NCBI GenBank assembly: GCA_004376375.1
Contig: SOJX01000076.1
Span: forward strand, 1-64,000
Source of the DNA: Planctomycetota bacterium
Lineage (GTDB): Bacteria > Planctomycetota > E44-bin39
Reading direction: 5' to 3'
DNA length: 64,000 nucleotides
Every line of letters begins with the position of its first letter. Position 1 is the stretch's first letter. The notes below the pieces were generated by a model. That model had not been told where the DNA came from and ran no database searches. It saw only the letters and a list, made by a program, of their open reading frames with translations. Positions 13,658-21,795 of the stretch are shown piece after piece. The position numbers and the translations under genes were made by a program.

Positions 13658-15436
13658 TCACTTGGATCCGCGAGGGCCTTTGTATTCCGTATCCCTTATC
13701 CAGCGCTTGAATTCCTTTTCAACCTCAGATATTTTCCTGCACAGAACCTTCTCCATATCTCCAGTGGATGAGGGATCAACTTTGCGGCCGTTCACGTCCC
13801 TGAGGTATTTGAGAAATCCTTTCCTGTAGGGCGATTTTTTATGAGTCAGGAAGAATATAAACCCGCCGCATTCGTTGTAGCAGAGCATCCGCTTACTGTT
13901 GAAATGTTTGACCCAGTCGGCGATCAATTCCGCAAGCGGTATTAATTCATTCTTTCGCAGTGATTCTTTCAGGTACCAGAACCGGGTGTTATGGTTGAAT
14001 TCATTTTCAATTTCGAAGTTGACGGCCAGACCTTCATCGAACCAGGCCTGCATGAGCGGGACCTTATCGAGCACGAAAGTCCAGAAGAACTGGTGTGCTC
14101 CCTCATGACCGAGGTTGGCAAGAGTGCCTGAGTAATCATCATTGCCCAGCCACCGGCTCACGACCGGCCGCCCTTCGACTGCGAACTCGAAGTACCCGAA
14201 AGTCCGGTCTACCCGGCAGCCGGTACCCCTCGTCATCCCTGCGAATTTCTTGAGCTTTTCATGCTCCTTGAAGACTATCAGGTTCAGTTTCTCCTTGCGT
14301 TTCGGCTTTATTTCATAGAAGTCACGGTAGCGTTTGTGCATTCGCTCCATCTTCGTAAGGGCTTTCCTGACGAATTTGCTACCCATGTTCGAGACGATGC
14401 GGTAGCGCCTGCTTGTCTTTACCTTCATGCCGGGAGCTGCCCGTTTTGCGATTGAGACAGCATCCCGTTTGCCTTTTTTCTCGAGCTTCAACGTCTTCTG
14501 GATTTGTCCTTTGCCCTGGCGGCCGAAAACGAGTTTTACGCGGTTTCCAGGCTTTTTTCTCTCAAGCGCCATTTTCAGGTCGGATATATCAGAAACCTTC
14601 TTTCCGTCAACACTAGTGATAACATCTCCAACCTTCAGGCCGGCCTTGTGCGCGGGGCTGTCTTCGATTACCTGCGTGACTTTAAGGCCATCCTGACCGG
14701 GACTCAGCATCACACCGAGCCAGATTTTATCTTCATTTTCCGCCGGTTCAGATGGATGAAGATTTGCCTGCCAGTCAACAGAGCCCGCACACAGGTTCGG
14801 AGGTGGTGGAGTATGGCCGCCGGGAAAAGTCTTTACTTCCGTTTTGTATCCCCTGGCTTTCATTACATCTGCCTGGGACTGCACGGCTGAAGGACTGTCG
14901 TGGGTTCCGACTATATAGTAGATGGAGATTTCCCTGCGCAGGTTGAAGTTGTACCCCATCCAGTTTCCGGTCGCCATCGGTATCACGCCGGCGAAATGCT
15001 CCGAGTATTTCTGCGCCATCGTGAACGCCATCGTTCCGCCGCCGGAGAAGCCGGTTGAGAAACATTTTCCATCGTCAACGGAAAACCTTTCGTGCGTGTC
15101 TTTCCACATCGCCTCGATAGCGGTGGCGATTGGACCGCCCGGGCCGTTACGCGCGTTGTTCGAGCCCACTGCAATCCAGCCGTTGCGTTCACAGGCAGCC
15201 TTGAAAAGACCTAGAATCGACGCTCCGTGTCCACTAGGGCTGAAGCAATACAGGATGGGCCATTTCTTCTTTGGCGTATATTTACGGGGCAGGTAACACA
15301 CGTAACTCTGGCTGTTGTCATGTTTGCACTTAAGTACCGCAGCCTTTCCCGGTGCAGGATTTCCCTGGGCCGATACCGTCGTACATTTGCACAGAAAAAG
15401 CGCCAGAATACATGCTATCGAAATCATCCTCGGCAT
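13658..15436 (-). CDS. Secreted esterase-PDZ-gluzincin peptidase fusion
   Basis: 592 residues from the ATG at 15436-15434, which has GGAGGA upstream; the frame is open farther but low in coding sense. Signal peptide ends VSAQ (signal peptidase I type); unlike its neighbours it has no Gly/Thr linker. Domain 1 (about 30-250): esterase with TGFSGGGT nucleophile elbow and a late His (FPGGH). Domain 2 (about 275-350): PDZ (WLGVMLSPGQ, SPAHKAGLKVGDVI). Domain 3 (about 380-590): gluzincin-like peptidase with GHEGAHQ and WFDEGLAVNFE, where the Glu is the probable third zinc ligand, as in DUF1570-type proteins. Three enzyme or binding domains on one chain are unusual. Probably a periplasmic or secreted degradative enzyme. 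Confidence 0.8.
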   Translation of the reverse strand: MPRMISIACILALFLCKCTTVSAQGNPAPGKAAVLKCKHDNSQSYVCYLPRKYTPKKKWPILYCFSPSGHGASILGLFKAACERNGWIAVGSNNARNGPGGPIATAIEAMWKDTHERFSVDDGKCFSTGFSGGGTMAFTMAQKYSEHFAGVIPMATGNWMGYNFNLRREISIYYIVGTHDSPSAVQSQADVMKARGYKTEVKTFPGGHTPPPPNLCAGSVDWQANLHPSEPAENEDKIWLGVMLSPGQDGLKVTQVIEDSPAHKAGLKVGDVITSVDGKKVSDISDLKMALERKKPGNRVKLVFGRQGKGQIQKTLKLEKKGKRDAVSIAKRAAPGMKVKTSRRYRIVSNMGSKFVRKALTKMERMHKRYRDFYEIKPKRKEKLNLIVFKEHEKLKKFAGMTRGTGCRVDRTFGYFEFAVEGRPVVSRWLGNDDYSGTLANLGHEGAHQFFWTFVLDKVPLMQAWFDEGLAVNFEIENEFNHNTRFWYLKESLRKNELIPLAELIADWVKHFNSKRMLCYNECGGFIFFLTHKKSPYRKGFLKYLRDVNGRKVDPSSTGDMEKVLCRKISEVEKEFKRWIRDTEYKGPRGSK

Positions 15437-15557
15437 TGCAGGAATCCTCCTTCTGGACTCGAAGCGGCTGGCCGCCACCAGCCGCTTCGCAGTCGGGGGA
15501 GAGAAAAGGGATATCGCTACATTACCTGATTCACTATATAGTTCGTGCCGCTGCCAA

Positions 15558-16115
15558 TCAAGGATCTTTGCTGAACGGGCACATGGGTCCGCCTCCAGAG
15601 CCCGACCCTCCGCCAGAGCTACCGCCTCCGGAGCCACCGCCTGAACCGCCACCTGAAGTTCCGGGTGTGTAATCCGCAACCTGAACTGTCATATAGCAGG
15701 TCAGGCCAGCGGAATCTTTGGCACAAAGCTTGTCCGTGCAACCTCCGTAAGGACCAGCCGTGTAAGAGCCGACGCCGGTGTCAGGATCAAAAGAGCCCTG
15801 AGGCTCGCCCCCGCCATAACTCTGAATATCGCTGGCATCCTCATACCCGAACTGATACGGAGGGGTTCCGCCTACCACCTGAAAACTCACCGTATAGTTT
15901 TTAAGAGTGCTGGTCGAAGGAGGTTCAAAGCTGAAGCCGCCGGATCCTCCCCCAGAGCCAGACGGTGTTCCCGTCATACCTGACGGGTCTCCTGCCGAGG
16001 CGCCTAAGGTACTGGCGTTATCTTTCGACTTTTTGCTGCAGCCCAGAGTACACAATCCCACCATGGCGCACAGAAGAAGAATTCCGAGTATGCCGGTCCA
16101 CCGAAAACGTCTCAT
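15558..16115 (-). CDS. Lipoprotein with Ig-like fold and C-terminal Gly/Ser tail
   Basis: 185 residues from the ATG at 16115-16113, preceded by GGAGG. Signal segment, lipobox TLGC, SKKSKDNAS and a Gly/Ser linker. The middle (about 75-155) reads like a putative Ig-like or PKD-type beta domain: the phrase VSFQVVGGTPPYQFGY is typical of such repeats, followed by two or three cysteines. A second long Gly/Ser linker and a short PMCPFSKDP end follow. The C-terminal linker suggests a missing or very short second domain. Likely a surface spacer or binding protein; no enzyme motif is visible. Confidence 0.65.
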   Translation of the reverse strand: MRRFRWTGILGILLLCAMVGLCTLGCSKKSKDNASTLGASAGDPSGMTGTPSGSGGGSGGFSFEPPSTSTLKNYTVSFQVVGGTPPYQFGYEDASDIQSYGGGEPQGSFDPDTGVGSYTAGPYGGCTDKLCAKDSAGLTCYMTVQVADYTPGTSGGGSGGGSGGGSSGGGSGSGGGPMCPFSKDP

Positions 16116-16154
16116 ATTCAATCCTCCTAACACGAGTTGAGTTTCCGAGTTCAC

Positions 16155-16196
16155 TTAATCTGCCAGGTCGACGACCCAGGCTTCATGGTGGTCGAT
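16155..16196 (-). other. In-frame tail after TGA: CAP terminal strand
   Basis: After the TGA the same frame continues IDHHEAWVVDLAD and ends at TAA (16157-16155). The motif WVVDL is the normal last beta-strand of a CAP domain and is shared with the tail at 16863-16907. The TGA is followed by A. Confidence 0.65.
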
Positions 16197-16796
16197 TCAC
16201 GAGTAGTGAGCTTCACCTCCACCGATGCCGACCCGGTTGAATACAGGATTTGTAAGTATGGTTTTATCCAACTCACCGTAAACTTCGGTATTAATAAAAA
16301 GTATCATGCCGTCATAGTGCATGCCTGTCTCACCGCATTGGCTGAAGCTGACGCCGCCTGCCCTGAGCCGGTTTTCCGGTGTGCCGTTAAGGTTCGGACT
16401 GTATTGTCGATTCTGTGCACAAACATACGCATAATCAGTGGCGACACCTTCAATACGCAAATCATAGCTCAACAGATGCACACCTGACGATTGACGCAAG
16501 TTGTTTATCTTATCAAATAAGTCCTGCCTCTCGCGGTCCGTTGGAATGTCGCCGCCTCCGCCACCGGTGCCGTTACCACCGCCGGTACCAGAGCTTCCTC
16601 CACCGGGTGTAGAACCGCCGCCACCGGGAGTAGTGCCGCCGCCGGTATTAGTGCCGCCGGTGCCTCCGGCTCCCGAGCCACTTGTCGCGGGGATGTCGCT
16701 TTTGCTTGATTTACCACTCTTACCGCATCCTGCGATCGTTGCGAATGATAGTACTGCGGCAATTGCAATCAGTATGGTAAGCCTGCTGTGTTTCAT
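16197..16796 (-). CDS. Lipoprotein, divergent CAP/SCP domain, ends at internal TGA
   Basis: 199 residues up to the TGA at 16199-16197. Signal, lipobox IAGC, GKSGKSSKS, Gly/Thr/Pro linker to about residue 85, then a CAP-like domain: RQDLFDKINNLRQSSGVHLL, a Tyr-Asp replacing the usual xW, VATDYAYVCAQ, QCGETG (compare CGEN) and NPVFNRVGIG. The usual CAP His and HR motifs are absent. The final strand of the CAP fold is missing before the TGA, but it is found in frame just after it (16196-16158). The adjacent gene has the same feature. Either the gene is truncated by a nonsense codon or the TGA is read through. Confidence 0.7.
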   Translation of the reverse strand: MKHSRLTILIAIAAVLSFATIAGCGKSGKSSKSDIPATSGSGAGGTGGTNTGGGTTPGGGGSTPGGGSSGTGGGNGTGGGGGDIPTDRERQDLFDKINNLRQSSGVHLLSYDLRIEGVATDYAYVCAQNRQYSPNLNGTPENRLRAGGVSFSQCGETGMHYDGMILFINTEVYGELDKTILTNPVFNRVGIGGGEAHYS

Positions 16797-16862
16797 CGTT
16801 TTCTAACCTTTCCAGGTTGTTAGTTTCTTTATTGAACGCCTTACACGAGGCGCCACCGCTTC

Positions 16863-16907
16863 CTAGTCGCAGAGGTCTACGACCCAGAAGTCGGTATCGG
16901 CGCCGTT
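16863..16907 (-). other. In-frame tail after TGA: CAP terminal strand
   Basis: After the TGA (16910-16908) the frame continues NGADTDFWVVDLCD and ends at TAG (16865-16863). Shares WVVDL-x-D with the tail of the next gene; the TGA lies 8 residues before the Trp here and 7 there. Confidence 0.65.
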
Positions 16908-17549
16908 TCACCCCCCGAAATGTTCGAAGTAGTGCCCGACACCTGCCCGTGTGAAAGCCGGATTGTTGAGCTTGCTGTGGTCAAGGTTTGCGTAGGCCTG
17001 CTGCGCAGTTGCCACTTCCGGGGGCATATACACGGGGTCACCGATTACCCCTGTTTCATCGCACTTCACAAAGGTAACACCGCCTTCTTCCAGGCGTTGC
17101 CGCGGATTCTTGCCGTCGGCAGTAGGCGAATATGGTGAGCTCGAGCCTTTGCTGCCGATCCAGTTGGCCAGCCATCTGCAGTATGCTTCGGCCACTGATG
17201 CTATCTGCGGGTCCCATGTTAAGGGGTCAACCCCTTTGTTCATACGCCCTTCGTTAATCAACTGAAACAACTCACCTGCTTTTCCGGCCGGGCCGCCACC
17301 GCCCCCGGTACCGCCACCGGTTTGTGTTCCACTGCCCGTGGAACCGCCACCGGTCCCTCCACCCCCAGTGCTGGTGCCACCTCCATTGCCTCCGCTGCCA
17401 GTACCGCCGCCTGCACTTCCTCCGCCCCCACCCCCATAATTCGGTATAGAATCACGGCTGGATTTATGCTTTTTGCTGCAGCCCGGCATCCAAACGACCA
17501 GGCCAATGATAATTGCGGTCAGAACCAGTAATCCTTTTTTGCCAGTCAT
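16908..17549 (-). CDS. Lipoprotein, divergent CAP/SCP domain, ends at internal TGA
   Basis: 213 residues up to the TGA at 16910-16908. Signal, lipobox MPGC, SKKHKSSRDSIP, Gly/Thr linker to about residue 92. Then a CAP-like domain: KAGELFQLINEGRMNKGVDPL with the WDP motif, SVAEAYCRWLA, KCDETG and NPAFTRAGVG. It is a paralogue of 16197-16796; both share CxETG in place of CGEN and lack the CAP HR motif. As in that gene, the last strand (FWVVDL) lies in frame behind the TGA. Signal peptide is nearly the same as in 17611-18285, another sign of reuse of the export cassette. Confidence 0.7.
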   Translation of the reverse strand: MTGKKGLLVLTAIIIGLVVWMPGCSKKHKSSRDSIPNYGGGGGGSAGGGTGSGGNGGGTSTGGGGTGGGSTGSGTQTGGGTGGGGGPAGKAGELFQLINEGRMNKGVDPLTWDPQIASVAEAYCRWLANWIGSKGSSSPYSPTADGKNPRQRLEEGGVTFVKCDETGVIGDPVYMPPEVATAQQAYANLDHSKLNNPAFTRAGVGHYFEHFGG

Positions 17550-17610: not shown

Positions 17611-18285
17611 CTAGCGTAATGAAGCCCAGAATACAGCCACGCCGGAAGCACCTATTCCGACTCCGTGGTATTTGAGAGTCGAATTCAGTATTGCCGCGCG
17701 ATGTGTGGAACTGTTTTTCCATGCAGTTAAAGCGCCTGACGCTCCACCACCGTATCCGCATTCGTAGAGAGAACCCGGCAAACCAAGGAACTGACCTCGC
17801 TGCGTGCAGAAACTGTAGTTACTCGGATTGCTTTTTGCACCATGCCCAAAATAGCCCTGTTGTTCGCAGTCGTACGCGTGGCTTCGCTCTGCATCAGCGA
17901 TTTCATCCGACCAGATGAGAGCTGGCAGACCATTCTGCTGACGGTACTCATTAATGGCCTGGGCAACCATCTGTTCGTCCGCTGTACCGCCGGGAATCCT
18001 CGGAGCTTCGGGGTTTTCCGCAAGGCCAATCTGCGTATTACCAGGTACCGTGTCGCCGGTACCAGTGCCGCCGCCTGTGCCGCTACCTGTACCGGTGCCG
18101 GGCGAACCGCCGGGAATGTTCCCACTGCCGGTACCTGTTCCGCCCGGAACGGTGCCTCCGGTGCCTCCAGTGCTTCCGCCGCTAGCCGGGATAGAATTAC
18201 GGCTGGATTTGTGGCTTTTGCTGCAGCCTGGCATCCAAATGATCAGGCCGACAACAATAATTATGGCAAGAACATAGTTTTTCAT
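17611..18285 (-). CDS. Lipoprotein, CAP/SCP domain
   Basis: 224 residues. Signal, lipobox MPGC, SKSHKSSRNSIP, then a Gly/Thr/Pro linker to about residue 85. Canonical CAP layout: VAQAINEYRQQNGLPALIWSD, AERSHAYDCEQQGYFGH (first His), YECGYGGG (CGEN position), AWKNSSTHRAAIL (second His) and GVGIG...VFW at the end. Unlike the two genes downstream it keeps both histidines and ends without an internal TGA. First gene after the sigma54-type promoter at 18413. CAP proteins bind sterols or lipids, or act as allergen-type secreted proteins; the role here is unknown. Confidence 0.8.
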   Translation of the reverse strand: MKNYVLAIIIVVGLIIWMPGCSKSHKSSRNSIPASGGSTGGTGGTVPGGTGTGSGNIPGGSPGTGTGSGTGGGTGTGDTVPGNTQIGLAENPEAPRIPGGTADEQMVAQAINEYRQQNGLPALIWSDEIADAERSHAYDCEQQGYFGHGAKSNPSNYSFCTQRGQFLGLPGSLYECGYGGGASGALTAWKNSSTHRAAILNSTLKYHGVGIGASGVAVFWASLR

Positions 18286-19178: not shown

Positions 19179-21614
19179 TCAGGATTCCGTTCGTTTGATA
19201 CCGTAGCGTTTCATTTTTTCGTAGAGAGTGGAGCGGGCGATTCCGAGCAGCCTGGCCGTCTCCCGTGTATCAAACTCCGTTTTCTGCAATACGTCATGTA
19301 TCACTTTTCTTTCAATTTCTTCGAGGGTTTCGGTCGATGCGGGCGCTCTGGGATTGATGATATCATCCTTTACCATATGCTTTTCTATTTTACCTTTTGA
19401 TATCGCCGTCAATCGCAGCAACTCATTCCTTAATTCACGAACGTTGCCGGGCCAATCATACTGCTCGAGAGAATCGAGGGCGTCTTTTTCCAGGTCTTTC
19501 GACCGTCCGGATTGCCCGAGAAAATGCTCAACCAGAGCAGGCACATCTTCCCTGCGTTCTCTCAGGGGAGGAATGTTGATTGGAATAACGCTTATGCGGT
19601 AGAAAAGGTCTTCCCTGAATGCGCCGCGCCTGACCTCATCTTCCAGGTCTTTATTTGTGGCAAAAATCAGACGCACGTCCGCGGAAACCGGTTTTGTCGC
19701 TCCCAGCGGCCGGACGCTGCTTTCCTCCAGAACGCGGAGCAGTTTTACCTGCATCTCCAACGGCATTTCACCTATCTCATCAAGAAATAACGTACCTTTG
19801 TCAGCTGCAAGAAAAAGTCCGTCTCTGTCTTCGTTTGCACCGGTAAATGCGCCCCTGGCGTATCCGAACAGCTCACTTTCCATAAGCGAGGACGGAATGG
19901 CAATGCAACTGACGGGAACGAAACGACCCTTGCGGCCGCTGGTTTTGTGGATACGGCGGGCAAGCATTTCCTTTCCTACGCCGGTCTCACCGGTAAGGAG
20001 GACAGGCATATCCGTACCCGCCACCTTTTTTATCATCCCCATCACATTATTAATAACGTTGCTGCGGAACACGAACTCAGATTCTACTCCGGAAGCAGGG
20101 GGTAACCCCGTCGGTTCGGCAGGTTCCAATCTTGCCTTATCCCTGACATCCTCCAACGCGGCGATAGCATCGTCGACTGATGTGAGCTGGAGAGTCTTTT
20201 CCATTTCCAGCTCGAGGACCAGTTTGGCTATGCCCTTTACCGTGGGACTGTTATGGTATAAAGTCCGGTACTTCTCAGGCAGCGCATCGGCAGCAGTGCG
20301 AATCTGGGCATACAGGTCTTCAAGTATTCTCGAAGCCTGATCAAGTTTCCCTCCTGTTACCAGAAAGTCAGCCTGATGATATCCGGCCTTCATGTAATGA
20401 CAAAACCACCCCCGCTTCAGCGGCTTGAGAAACCTGTTCAGCTTCTTTGCAGCAGAATCTTCAAATTTCTTGCGTGCCGTAAGCAATAACACTTCCGTCA
20501 AGGCGCAATTGCTCTTCAAAAGGACATCATCCGTTCCCGTTGCAATAGAGGTTACCCTTTGCAGGATATTTCTTGCCTCCGAAAGCTTCAGGAGATTTAT
20601 TCCGGCTTCGGCCTCGTACAATAGAATTCTTGCTTCAACAAGGAAATGTCCGGAGGAGGCAAACTGTTTTCTGGCTTCGCGGGTATAATGGAGCGCGGCA
20701 ACAAAGTCTCCTTCTGAAAGCCGCACCCGTGCAAGAAGTCCCTGGTAGGTGGCAATACCGCGATTCCATTTCAACCGGCGGGAGACGGTAAGCCCTTCTT
20801 CCGCATACTGCCTGGCCCGGTCGAATGCCCCGAGTTCTATCAGCACTATCGTTAAGGAAATGTATGCCCGTGCGAGCTCAAGCCCTCCGAGAGCGCCTGC
20901 CTCCAGGGCGGCTTTCTCCATGTAGTCAAGGCAATCACCGTATTTGCCCATCTGTGCATGGAGCGAGCCCAGGAGCCACATGCAATCCGTGCGAACAGTT
21001 TTAGGTCCGAGGCCGGTAATTATGGAGAGAGCATTATTTGCATCATCGATTGCTTCACGGACATTACCGAGTCTCGATCTGAGCATGGCCGTGTTCAGAA
21101 GAGCATAGGCATGGTTCCTGCTTGCGGAAAGGGTCTGATAGATACTTATTGCTTTATTCCATTGCGGGATAGCCTTCTTGTACTCTCCCCGCATGTCTGC
21201 TATCTGGGCCAGGTCGGAAATGTTTCTGGCGAGGATATTGCCGGATAAGCGCTGTTTCCTGCACACGCTCAGCGACTGATTAAAGAACTTGACCGCCGAC
21301 GATTTGTTTCCTTTCAGTATGTAGCAATCACCGATATAATTAAGAGTGGAGGCAAGCGTTTCATGATTTCGAGTCTTCTCCGCCGTCTTTTTTGCCGTTT
21401 GTAGGTTCTCAAGCGCCTTTTTCCACTTTCCCTCGTCAACGTAGGACTTACCGACGAGGAGCTGCAGTTCAGCGCGAATGGCTTCCGTTACTTTCTGCCG
21501 CAGGAAACGCCTGAGCATGCGCCGGGCCTGTGCGTATTCACCCGCAGTGAACAGATGTTCCGATTCCTGCTCGATCTGACTGATGAACTCTCGCGGGTCA
21601 GGTTTCACGGGCAT
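19179..21614 (-). CDS. TPR-sigma54 activator without kinase (module 2)
   Basis: About 811 residues from the ATG at 21614-21612 (MPVKPDPREF); the frame stays open to 21788, so the start is uncertain. The first 500 residues are TPR-like helices (repeats such as ALENLQTAKKTAEKTRN, GNKSSAVKFFNQSLS). Then the sigma54 AAA+ domain (GETGVGKE, GAFTGA, GTLFLDEIGEMP, RLIFATN) and a Fis-type HTH (TARLLGIARSTLYEKMKRYGI). There is no kinase or GAF domain, unlike the other three activators, so its input must come through the TPR region or another protein. Transcribed away from the kinase-type activator at 21951. Probable binder of ATTCC-N7-GGAAT. Confidence 0.85.
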   Translation of the reverse strand: MPVKPDPREFISQIEQESEHLFTAGEYAQARRMLRRFLRQKVTEAIRAELQLLVGKSYVDEGKWKKALENLQTAKKTAEKTRNHETLASTLNYIGDCYILKGNKSSAVKFFNQSLSVCRKQRLSGNILARNISDLAQIADMRGEYKKAIPQWNKAISIYQTLSASRNHAYALLNTAMLRSRLGNVREAIDDANNALSIITGLGPKTVRTDCMWLLGSLHAQMGKYGDCLDYMEKAALEAGALGGLELARAYISLTIVLIELGAFDRARQYAEEGLTVSRRLKWNRGIATYQGLLARVRLSEGDFVAALHYTREARKQFASSGHFLVEARILLYEAEAGINLLKLSEARNILQRVTSIATGTDDVLLKSNCALTEVLLLTARKKFEDSAAKKLNRFLKPLKRGWFCHYMKAGYHQADFLVTGGKLDQASRILEDLYAQIRTAADALPEKYRTLYHNSPTVKGIAKLVLELEMEKTLQLTSVDDAIAALEDVRDKARLEPAEPTGLPPASGVESEFVFRSNVINNVMGMIKKVAGTDMPVLLTGETGVGKEMLARRIHKTSGRKGRFVPVSCIAIPSSLMESELFGYARGAFTGANEDRDGLFLAADKGTLFLDEIGEMPLEMQVKLLRVLEESSVRPLGATKPVSADVRLIFATNKDLEDEVRRGAFREDLFYRISVIPINIPPLRERREDVPALVEHFLGQSGRSKDLEKDALDSLEQYDWPGNVRELRNELLRLTAISKGKIEKHMVKDDIINPRAPASTETLEEIERKVIHDVLQKTEFDTRETARLLGIARSTLYEKMKRYGIKRTES

Positions 21615-21795
21615 GTCCCTACTGCAATCGTACTGCGGGACCATGTACTGAACAGGCCTTTGGGCTCCAGGTTCCGCCGATGGCGCAAGTATATGAAACC
21701 ATTCAAAAGATGTAAACAAACATTTATACGGCATTATCGGGATTGCGTTATAAGGGATATCCACAACCCGTAAGAATGATTTCCACAAGAAACCC

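Follow-up and report, generated by a model that had tools for sequence, protein, structure and literature searches.

The CAP fold (PF00188; CRISP/antigen 5/PR-1, including the YkwD-like SCP proteins) is widespread and poorly understood, and a common biochemical activity of the superfamily is unsettled. CAP proteins such as Pry1 bind divalent cations via a His/Glu/His/Glu tetrad (PMC4921858). Bacterial selenoproteins of the SelA/SelB/SelC/SelD type combine a UGA codon, a full set of selenocysteine (Sec) machinery in the genome and a SECIS hairpin 16-37 nt after the UGA, for which a bSECIS model has been given (PMC13188914). A group of CAP genes described here, U-CAP, resembles these selenoproteins in all three respects, and in most of its members the hairpin also has the small apical loop of bSECIS systems. 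It differs from other bacterial selenoproteins in that the hairpin is at the extreme C-terminus, often across the true stop codon, in apparently having no Cys orthologues, and in reaching nine copies in one genome. With the CAP superfamily, U-CAPs share the fold, an N-terminal NxxR motif, the cavity Glu and, as predicted, secretion; however, they are without both cavity His residues, the predicted Sec is in the last beta-hairpin loop, and the last strand is encoded after the UGA. CxxC-bearing CAP lipoprotein paralogues (GVGxCxxCxxHWTQNF) are found in the same genome and have the same export type, but they keep both histidines, have neither a UGA nor a hairpin signal, and form a separate clade.

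Two U-CAP genes are adjacent in the window, the whole 64,000-nucleotide stretch analysed (Table 1). U-CAP1 reads ...GIGGGEAHYS-TGA-IDHHEAWVVDLAD-TAA and U-CAP2 reads ...GVGHYFEHFGG-TGA-NGADTDFWVVDLCD-TAG. The sequence-only reading had described two neighbouring CAP lipoproteins, each with an in-frame TGA before its last strand, and the frames are as it gave them; both lie on the minus strand, which it had not stated. Each protein has a lipoprotein-type signal peptide with a lipobox-like Cys at its end, followed by a Gly-rich linker and a domain that belongs to the CAP superfamily by sequence (PF00188 scores of 25.9 bits for U-CAP1 and 27.3 bits for U-CAP2, against a Pfam cut-off of 21.1).

Table 1. 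Features of the U-CAP locus in the window, and SelB-type factors of the source genome (contig:coordinates).
Feature	Position	Strand	Remarks
TPR + sigma54-activator regulator	19179..21788	minus	upstream, same direction; 52% identity to the regulator before the CSMAG_1063 cluster
CAP lipoprotein without Sec	17611..18285	minus	ends FWASLR; 51% identity to its syntenic counterpart in CSMAG_1063
U-CAP2, CAP-domain lipoprotein	16863..17549	minus	228 residues; putative Sec is residue 214
U-CAP2 in-frame TGA	16908..16910	minus	very probably read as Sec
U-CAP2 tail NGADTDFWVVDLCD	16907-16866	minus	14 codons; TAG stop at 16865-16863
U-CAP2 SECIS-like hairpin CUUCUGGGUCGUAGACCUCUGCGACUAGGAAG	16859..16890	minus	spans WVVDLCD codons and the TAG stop
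U-CAP1, CAP-domain lipoprotein	16155..16796	minus	213 residues; putative Sec is residue 200
U-CAP1 in-frame TGA	16197..16199	minus	very probably read as Sec
U-CAP1 tail IDHHEAWVVDLAD	16196-16158	minus	13 codons; TAA stop at 16157-16155
U-CAP1 SECIS-like hairpin GCC-U-GGGUC-GUC-GACCU-GGC	16162..16181	minus	-10.4 kcal/mol
Small Gly-rich lipoprotein	15558..16154	minus	directly downstream of U-CAP1; no Pfam match
Secreted PDZ protein	13658..15679	minus	esterase-like N-terminal part, PDZ domain, region with NLGHEGAHQFF
SelB-type factor L010	C76:88747-90633		
SelB-type factor L009	C156:12904-14784		
SelB-type factor L011	C10:9062-10852		

A CAP scan of the draft source genome (5.7 Mb, 157 contigs) gave 30 matches, each of which was translated on to its TAA or TAG stop, and eight of them carry a single TGA shortly before the final strand. 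A profile of those eight (A1) recovered a ninth copy in the source genome, which has about 31 CAP genes, plus four in the MAG CSMAG_1063 (record DAOVDS01; G038 in member labels) and one in genome G008. On sequence grounds, U-CAP is a CAP subfamily of at least 14 genes in three bacterial genomes and two GTDB classes. CSMAG_1063 and G008 are the sole members of their class in the genome collection; the source genome lies outside that class and has only the phylum in common with them. A search of 392 genomes of the phylum gave no further strong match, no orthologue with a sense codon at the site and no true Cys orthologue. In the contig collection, a scan with the window protein gave no match, and a scan with profile A3 matched CSMAG_1063 only.

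In the alignment of the U-CAPs (A2, 14 rows), TGA is found at one column in 14/14 genes; one Glu and the tail Trp are also invariant. The interrupting codon is never TAA or TAG, whereas the true stops of the same genes are TAG (8), TAA (5) and TGA (1). The difference in TGA use between the two positions is strong (Fisher p 7e-7, uncorrected for relatedness). The view that chance is an improbable cause of two such interruptions is borne out by the recurrence of a TGA plus intact tail in 14 homologous genes of three genomes. In a tree of 40 sequences, all U-CAPs are in one clade (100/100), along with two long-branch members that do not have Sec, a topology compatible with one gain of Sec followed by losses. 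These two divergent sequences, L071 (G038:C267) and L066 (G008:C325), have neither a TGA nor a Cys at the site, and are possible secondary losses of Sec.

The tRNA-Sec of the source genome has a UCA anticodon and scores 72 bits, with agreement from ARAGORN; the genome also carries one selA and three SelB-type factors above the family cut-off, one of them encoded next to selA (Table 1). The two SelB-type factors away from selA have the SelB beta-barrel and winged-helix domains, and the one on C10 lies beside rhodanese and kelch lipoproteins. The selA, selB and selC genes, whose presence the sequence-only reading had proposed as a check, are accompanied by selD, which itself has a TGA at the U of the active-site motif CAGUAGK. 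A known Sec site of this genome thus has UGA independently of the U-CAP genes. A tRNA-Sec and selA are also found in CSMAG_1063 and G008, the best selB match in the latter being a short fragment only. As selA is present in 241/392 genomes of the phylum, its co-occurrence with U-CAP is weak evidence by itself, though consistent. The Rfam tRNA-Sec model also matches a second locus in G008 (L107, G008:C386:5255-5353; 58 bits), which is not called by ARAGORN.

SECIS-like hairpins follow the TGA in both window genes. In U-CAP1 the apical loop GUC is 24 nt past the UGA, a U is bulged out beneath the upper stem, and the hairpin overlaps the AWVVDLA codons. The U-CAP2 hairpin, extended outward, reaches about -37 kcal/mol (z -3.2 in a 77-nt fold). 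The 57-nt stretch that follows the UGA was folded in every member and set against 500 synonymous recodings of that member's tail, a comparison that separates RNA constraint from protein constraint. The U-CAP tails are more stable than their recodings (Stouffer Z -5.9), in contrast to the last 15 codons of 20 non-Sec CAP paralogues of the source genome (Z -0.8), although six members (L042, L078, L069, L047, L050 and L060) are singly not clearly more stable. The bSECIS model is fitted by 13/14 U-CAPs versus 6/20 controls (p 0.0004), L042 being the only failure; in L044, L060, L065 and L078 the hairpin that passes differs from their conserved one. An Rfam search gave no relevant match.

Two hairpin shapes are seen among the U-CAPs, in members ending with IQK and with WVVDL, respectively. 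In the former, the codons for W-x-x-D-x-I-Q-K fold as CUGGAUA...UAUCCAG, and a second helix joins Tyr codons to the codon for Lys and the stop codon. In this shape 2/11 pairs change on both sides, including a C-G to U-A change that accompanies a change of stop from TAG to TAA. WVVDL-ending members have GGGUC-GUN-GACCU, with G-C replaced by A-U in one member. These covariation counts are small, coming from only 5 and 8 sequences in the two shapes. The three SelB-type factors are possibly linked to the two shapes.

The UGA codons of U-CAP1 and U-CAP2 are very probably decoded as Sec, which would make both genes selenoproteins. Among the three options that the sequence-only reading had left side by side, Sec has gained support from the Sec machinery, the Sec-containing SelD, the SECIS-like hairpins after the TGA, and a TGA kept at one column in 14 genes of two classes; readthrough has lost ground to the variable codon context, and a copied nonsense mutation to the orthologues in the other class. 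In the mechanism proposed, the UGA just before the last CAP beta-strand would be read as Sec by tRNA-Sec(UCA) and SelB. SelB would be directed by a SECIS hairpin placed within the conserved-tail codons right after the UGA, and in several members running beyond the true stop codon. Full-length decoding would complete the CAP sandwich with its last strand, placing Sec in the final beta-hairpin loop, and the product would be exported as a lipoprotein.

Programmed stop-codon readthrough, in which a near-cognate tRNA would decode the UGA at a low level to give a mixture of truncated and extended CAP proteins, is improbable. UGA is the leakiest stop codon, it is followed by A in 9 of the 14 genes, and the part of the protein upstream of the TGA makes up a nearly complete CAP domain. 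However, that truncated form would be without the last strand of its sheet, and the next base is G, C or T in the other genes (3, 1 and 1, respectively), so that the readthrough context is not fixed. Generic readthrough is disfavoured because this base varies while a hairpin at SECIS distance is conserved. It also does not account for the exclusion of UAG and UAA from the interrupting position, the dedicated UGA-decoding system in three genomes, or the use of UGA at the Sec site of selD, a second gene of the source genome.

Under another explanation, a nonsense mutation arose once, in an ancestral CAP gene, and was spread by duplication, leaving recent pseudogenes or truncated forms. The adjacency of the U-CAP1 and U-CAP2 paralogues in a genome so rich in CAP genes would fit this, but the conservation of the locus across classes makes it very unlikely. 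The gene order TPR-sigma54 activator, CAP without Sec, U-CAP2, U-CAP1, PDZ protein is common to both classes, the window differing from CSMAG_1063 by the extra small lipoprotein before the PDZ protein. Over its C-terminal 370 aa, the PDZ protein shares 62% identity with the gene that follows the CSMAG_1063 U-CAP pair, U-CAP2 is 72% identical in its domain to its CSMAG_1063 orthologue, and U-CAP1 groups with two CSMAG_1063 genes. Orthologues in this other class retain the TGA and the tail as well as gene order, and the changes that separate their tails are synonymous or, for the most part, mild. The decayed tails that would have spoken against a functional TGA are not seen. A copied nonsense mutation is excluded on the strength of these syntenic orthologues with intact, constrained tails; in addition, each of nine copies would have needed an open, structured tail.

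Sequencing or assembly error at both sites, conceivable in a draft of 157 contigs, is refuted because nine genes, on separate contigs, share this TGA, which recurs in two other, independent assemblies; its probability is negligible. Equally negligible is a variant genetic code with UGA as a sense codon genome-wide: although UGA is open in all 14 genes, 9 of the 33 other ORFs in the window (>=150 aa, greedily chosen, U-CAP pair left out) end in ordinary TGA stops, and none of these 9 has a CAP-like conserved tail when read through. In addition, L069 has a TGA both inside the gene and as its stop, there followed by a terminator-like hairpin, the tail Trp is encoded by TGG, and UGA decoding is explained by tRNA-Sec(UCA). 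The code had been taken as standard from the TGA stops in the window, which is right apart from the Sec recoding.

The AlphaFold model of U-CAP2, with Sec entered as Cys, is an alpha-beta-alpha CAP sandwich (pLDDT 84.3, pTM 0.82). A six-sequence alignment alone had given pLDDT 48, and the good model was obtained on adding three ordinary CAP rows. Residues 130-139, all encoded after the TGA, form the last CAP beta-strand, in line with the earlier suggestion that the tail is the normal end of the fold. The best PDB matches are the bacterial SCP-domain structures 4ifa and 4h0a and BB0689/4d53, and GAPR-1 is also matched.

The cavity differs from that of ordinary CAPs. In a joint alignment, the two cavity His columns have H in 17/18 and 18/18 ordinary CAPs versus 0/14 U-CAPs, whereas the cavity Glu is kept in all 32 proteins. 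Thus, the full His/Glu/His/Glu tetrad is missing from U-CAPs, with both His residues absent and one Glu kept in 14/14. The placement of U-CAP in the CAP fold stands nonetheless, since some accepted CAP proteins, such as SmVAL4, also do not have the tetrad (PMC4921858). Eight of the 18 ordinary paralogues have Cys at the Sec column, but the alignment is gap-rich and uncertain there, and the Cys/Sec correspondence is therefore only suggestive. As judged from these alignments, U-CAPs have lost the metal-site histidines, kept the glutamate and gained a predicted invariant Sec. A Cys two residues before the Glu is present in many U-CAPs; as it is absent from some, a fixed selenenylsulfide partner is unsupported, and an external thiol partner or a binding role is as likely.

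U-CAPs may be envelope redox or soft-ligand-binding proteins with the selenol as the reactive group, and their role is probably in extracytoplasmic redox or ligand chemistry. That they are redox enzymes in particular is conceivable, at somewhat less than even chances. A fuller proposal is more tentative still: U-CAP could be a class of extracytoplasmic selenoenzymes with a rebuilt cavity, in which the His residues are lost and the invariant Sec and kept Glu are reactive, with nine copies under sigma54-type regulators and two SECIS shapes, for which more than one of the three SelB-type factors may be in use.

A CAP/SCP selenoprotein family is absent, by CAP/SCP terms, from two reviews on selenoproteins of prokaryotes, published in 2026 and 2022 (PMC13188914, PMC9312934), no CAP selenoprotein was found in the literature searched, which did not extend to supplementary tables and subscription papers, and no NCBIfam family matches the U-CAP proteins. 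U-CAP appears to be a previously undescribed selenoprotein family and, among CAP domains, a new variant. It would place Sec, in multicopy and exported form, on a fold not tied to it in the literature searched. As U-CAP apparently has no Cys orthologues, searches for Cys/Sec pairs would miss it, and annotation pipelines would call every member truncated. An invariant Sec would be a direct chemical handle on the CAP superfamily, and would mean that the loop of the final beta-hairpin is able to hold a reactive centre.

Regulators recur near U-CAP genes outside the window. In a second CSMAG_1063 cluster, two U-CAPs are accompanied by a sigma54 activator and a transglutaminase-like protein. Several other source-genome U-CAPs lie within islands of secreted Gly-rich lipoproteins, close to large sigma54-type regulators. 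The sigma54-type activator beside many U-CAP copies may control them. In the source-genome islands around L114, L116, L119 and L120, many paralogous Gly-rich secreted lipoproteins are found by giant kinase/TPR/sigma54 regulators, and include CAP-like WWVL proteins, alpha/beta hydrolase-like and protease-like proteins. The G008 member L050 (G008:C336:3470-3841) carries a second in-frame TGA two residues from the first (PUVUGGG), a possible Sec-x-Sec motif.
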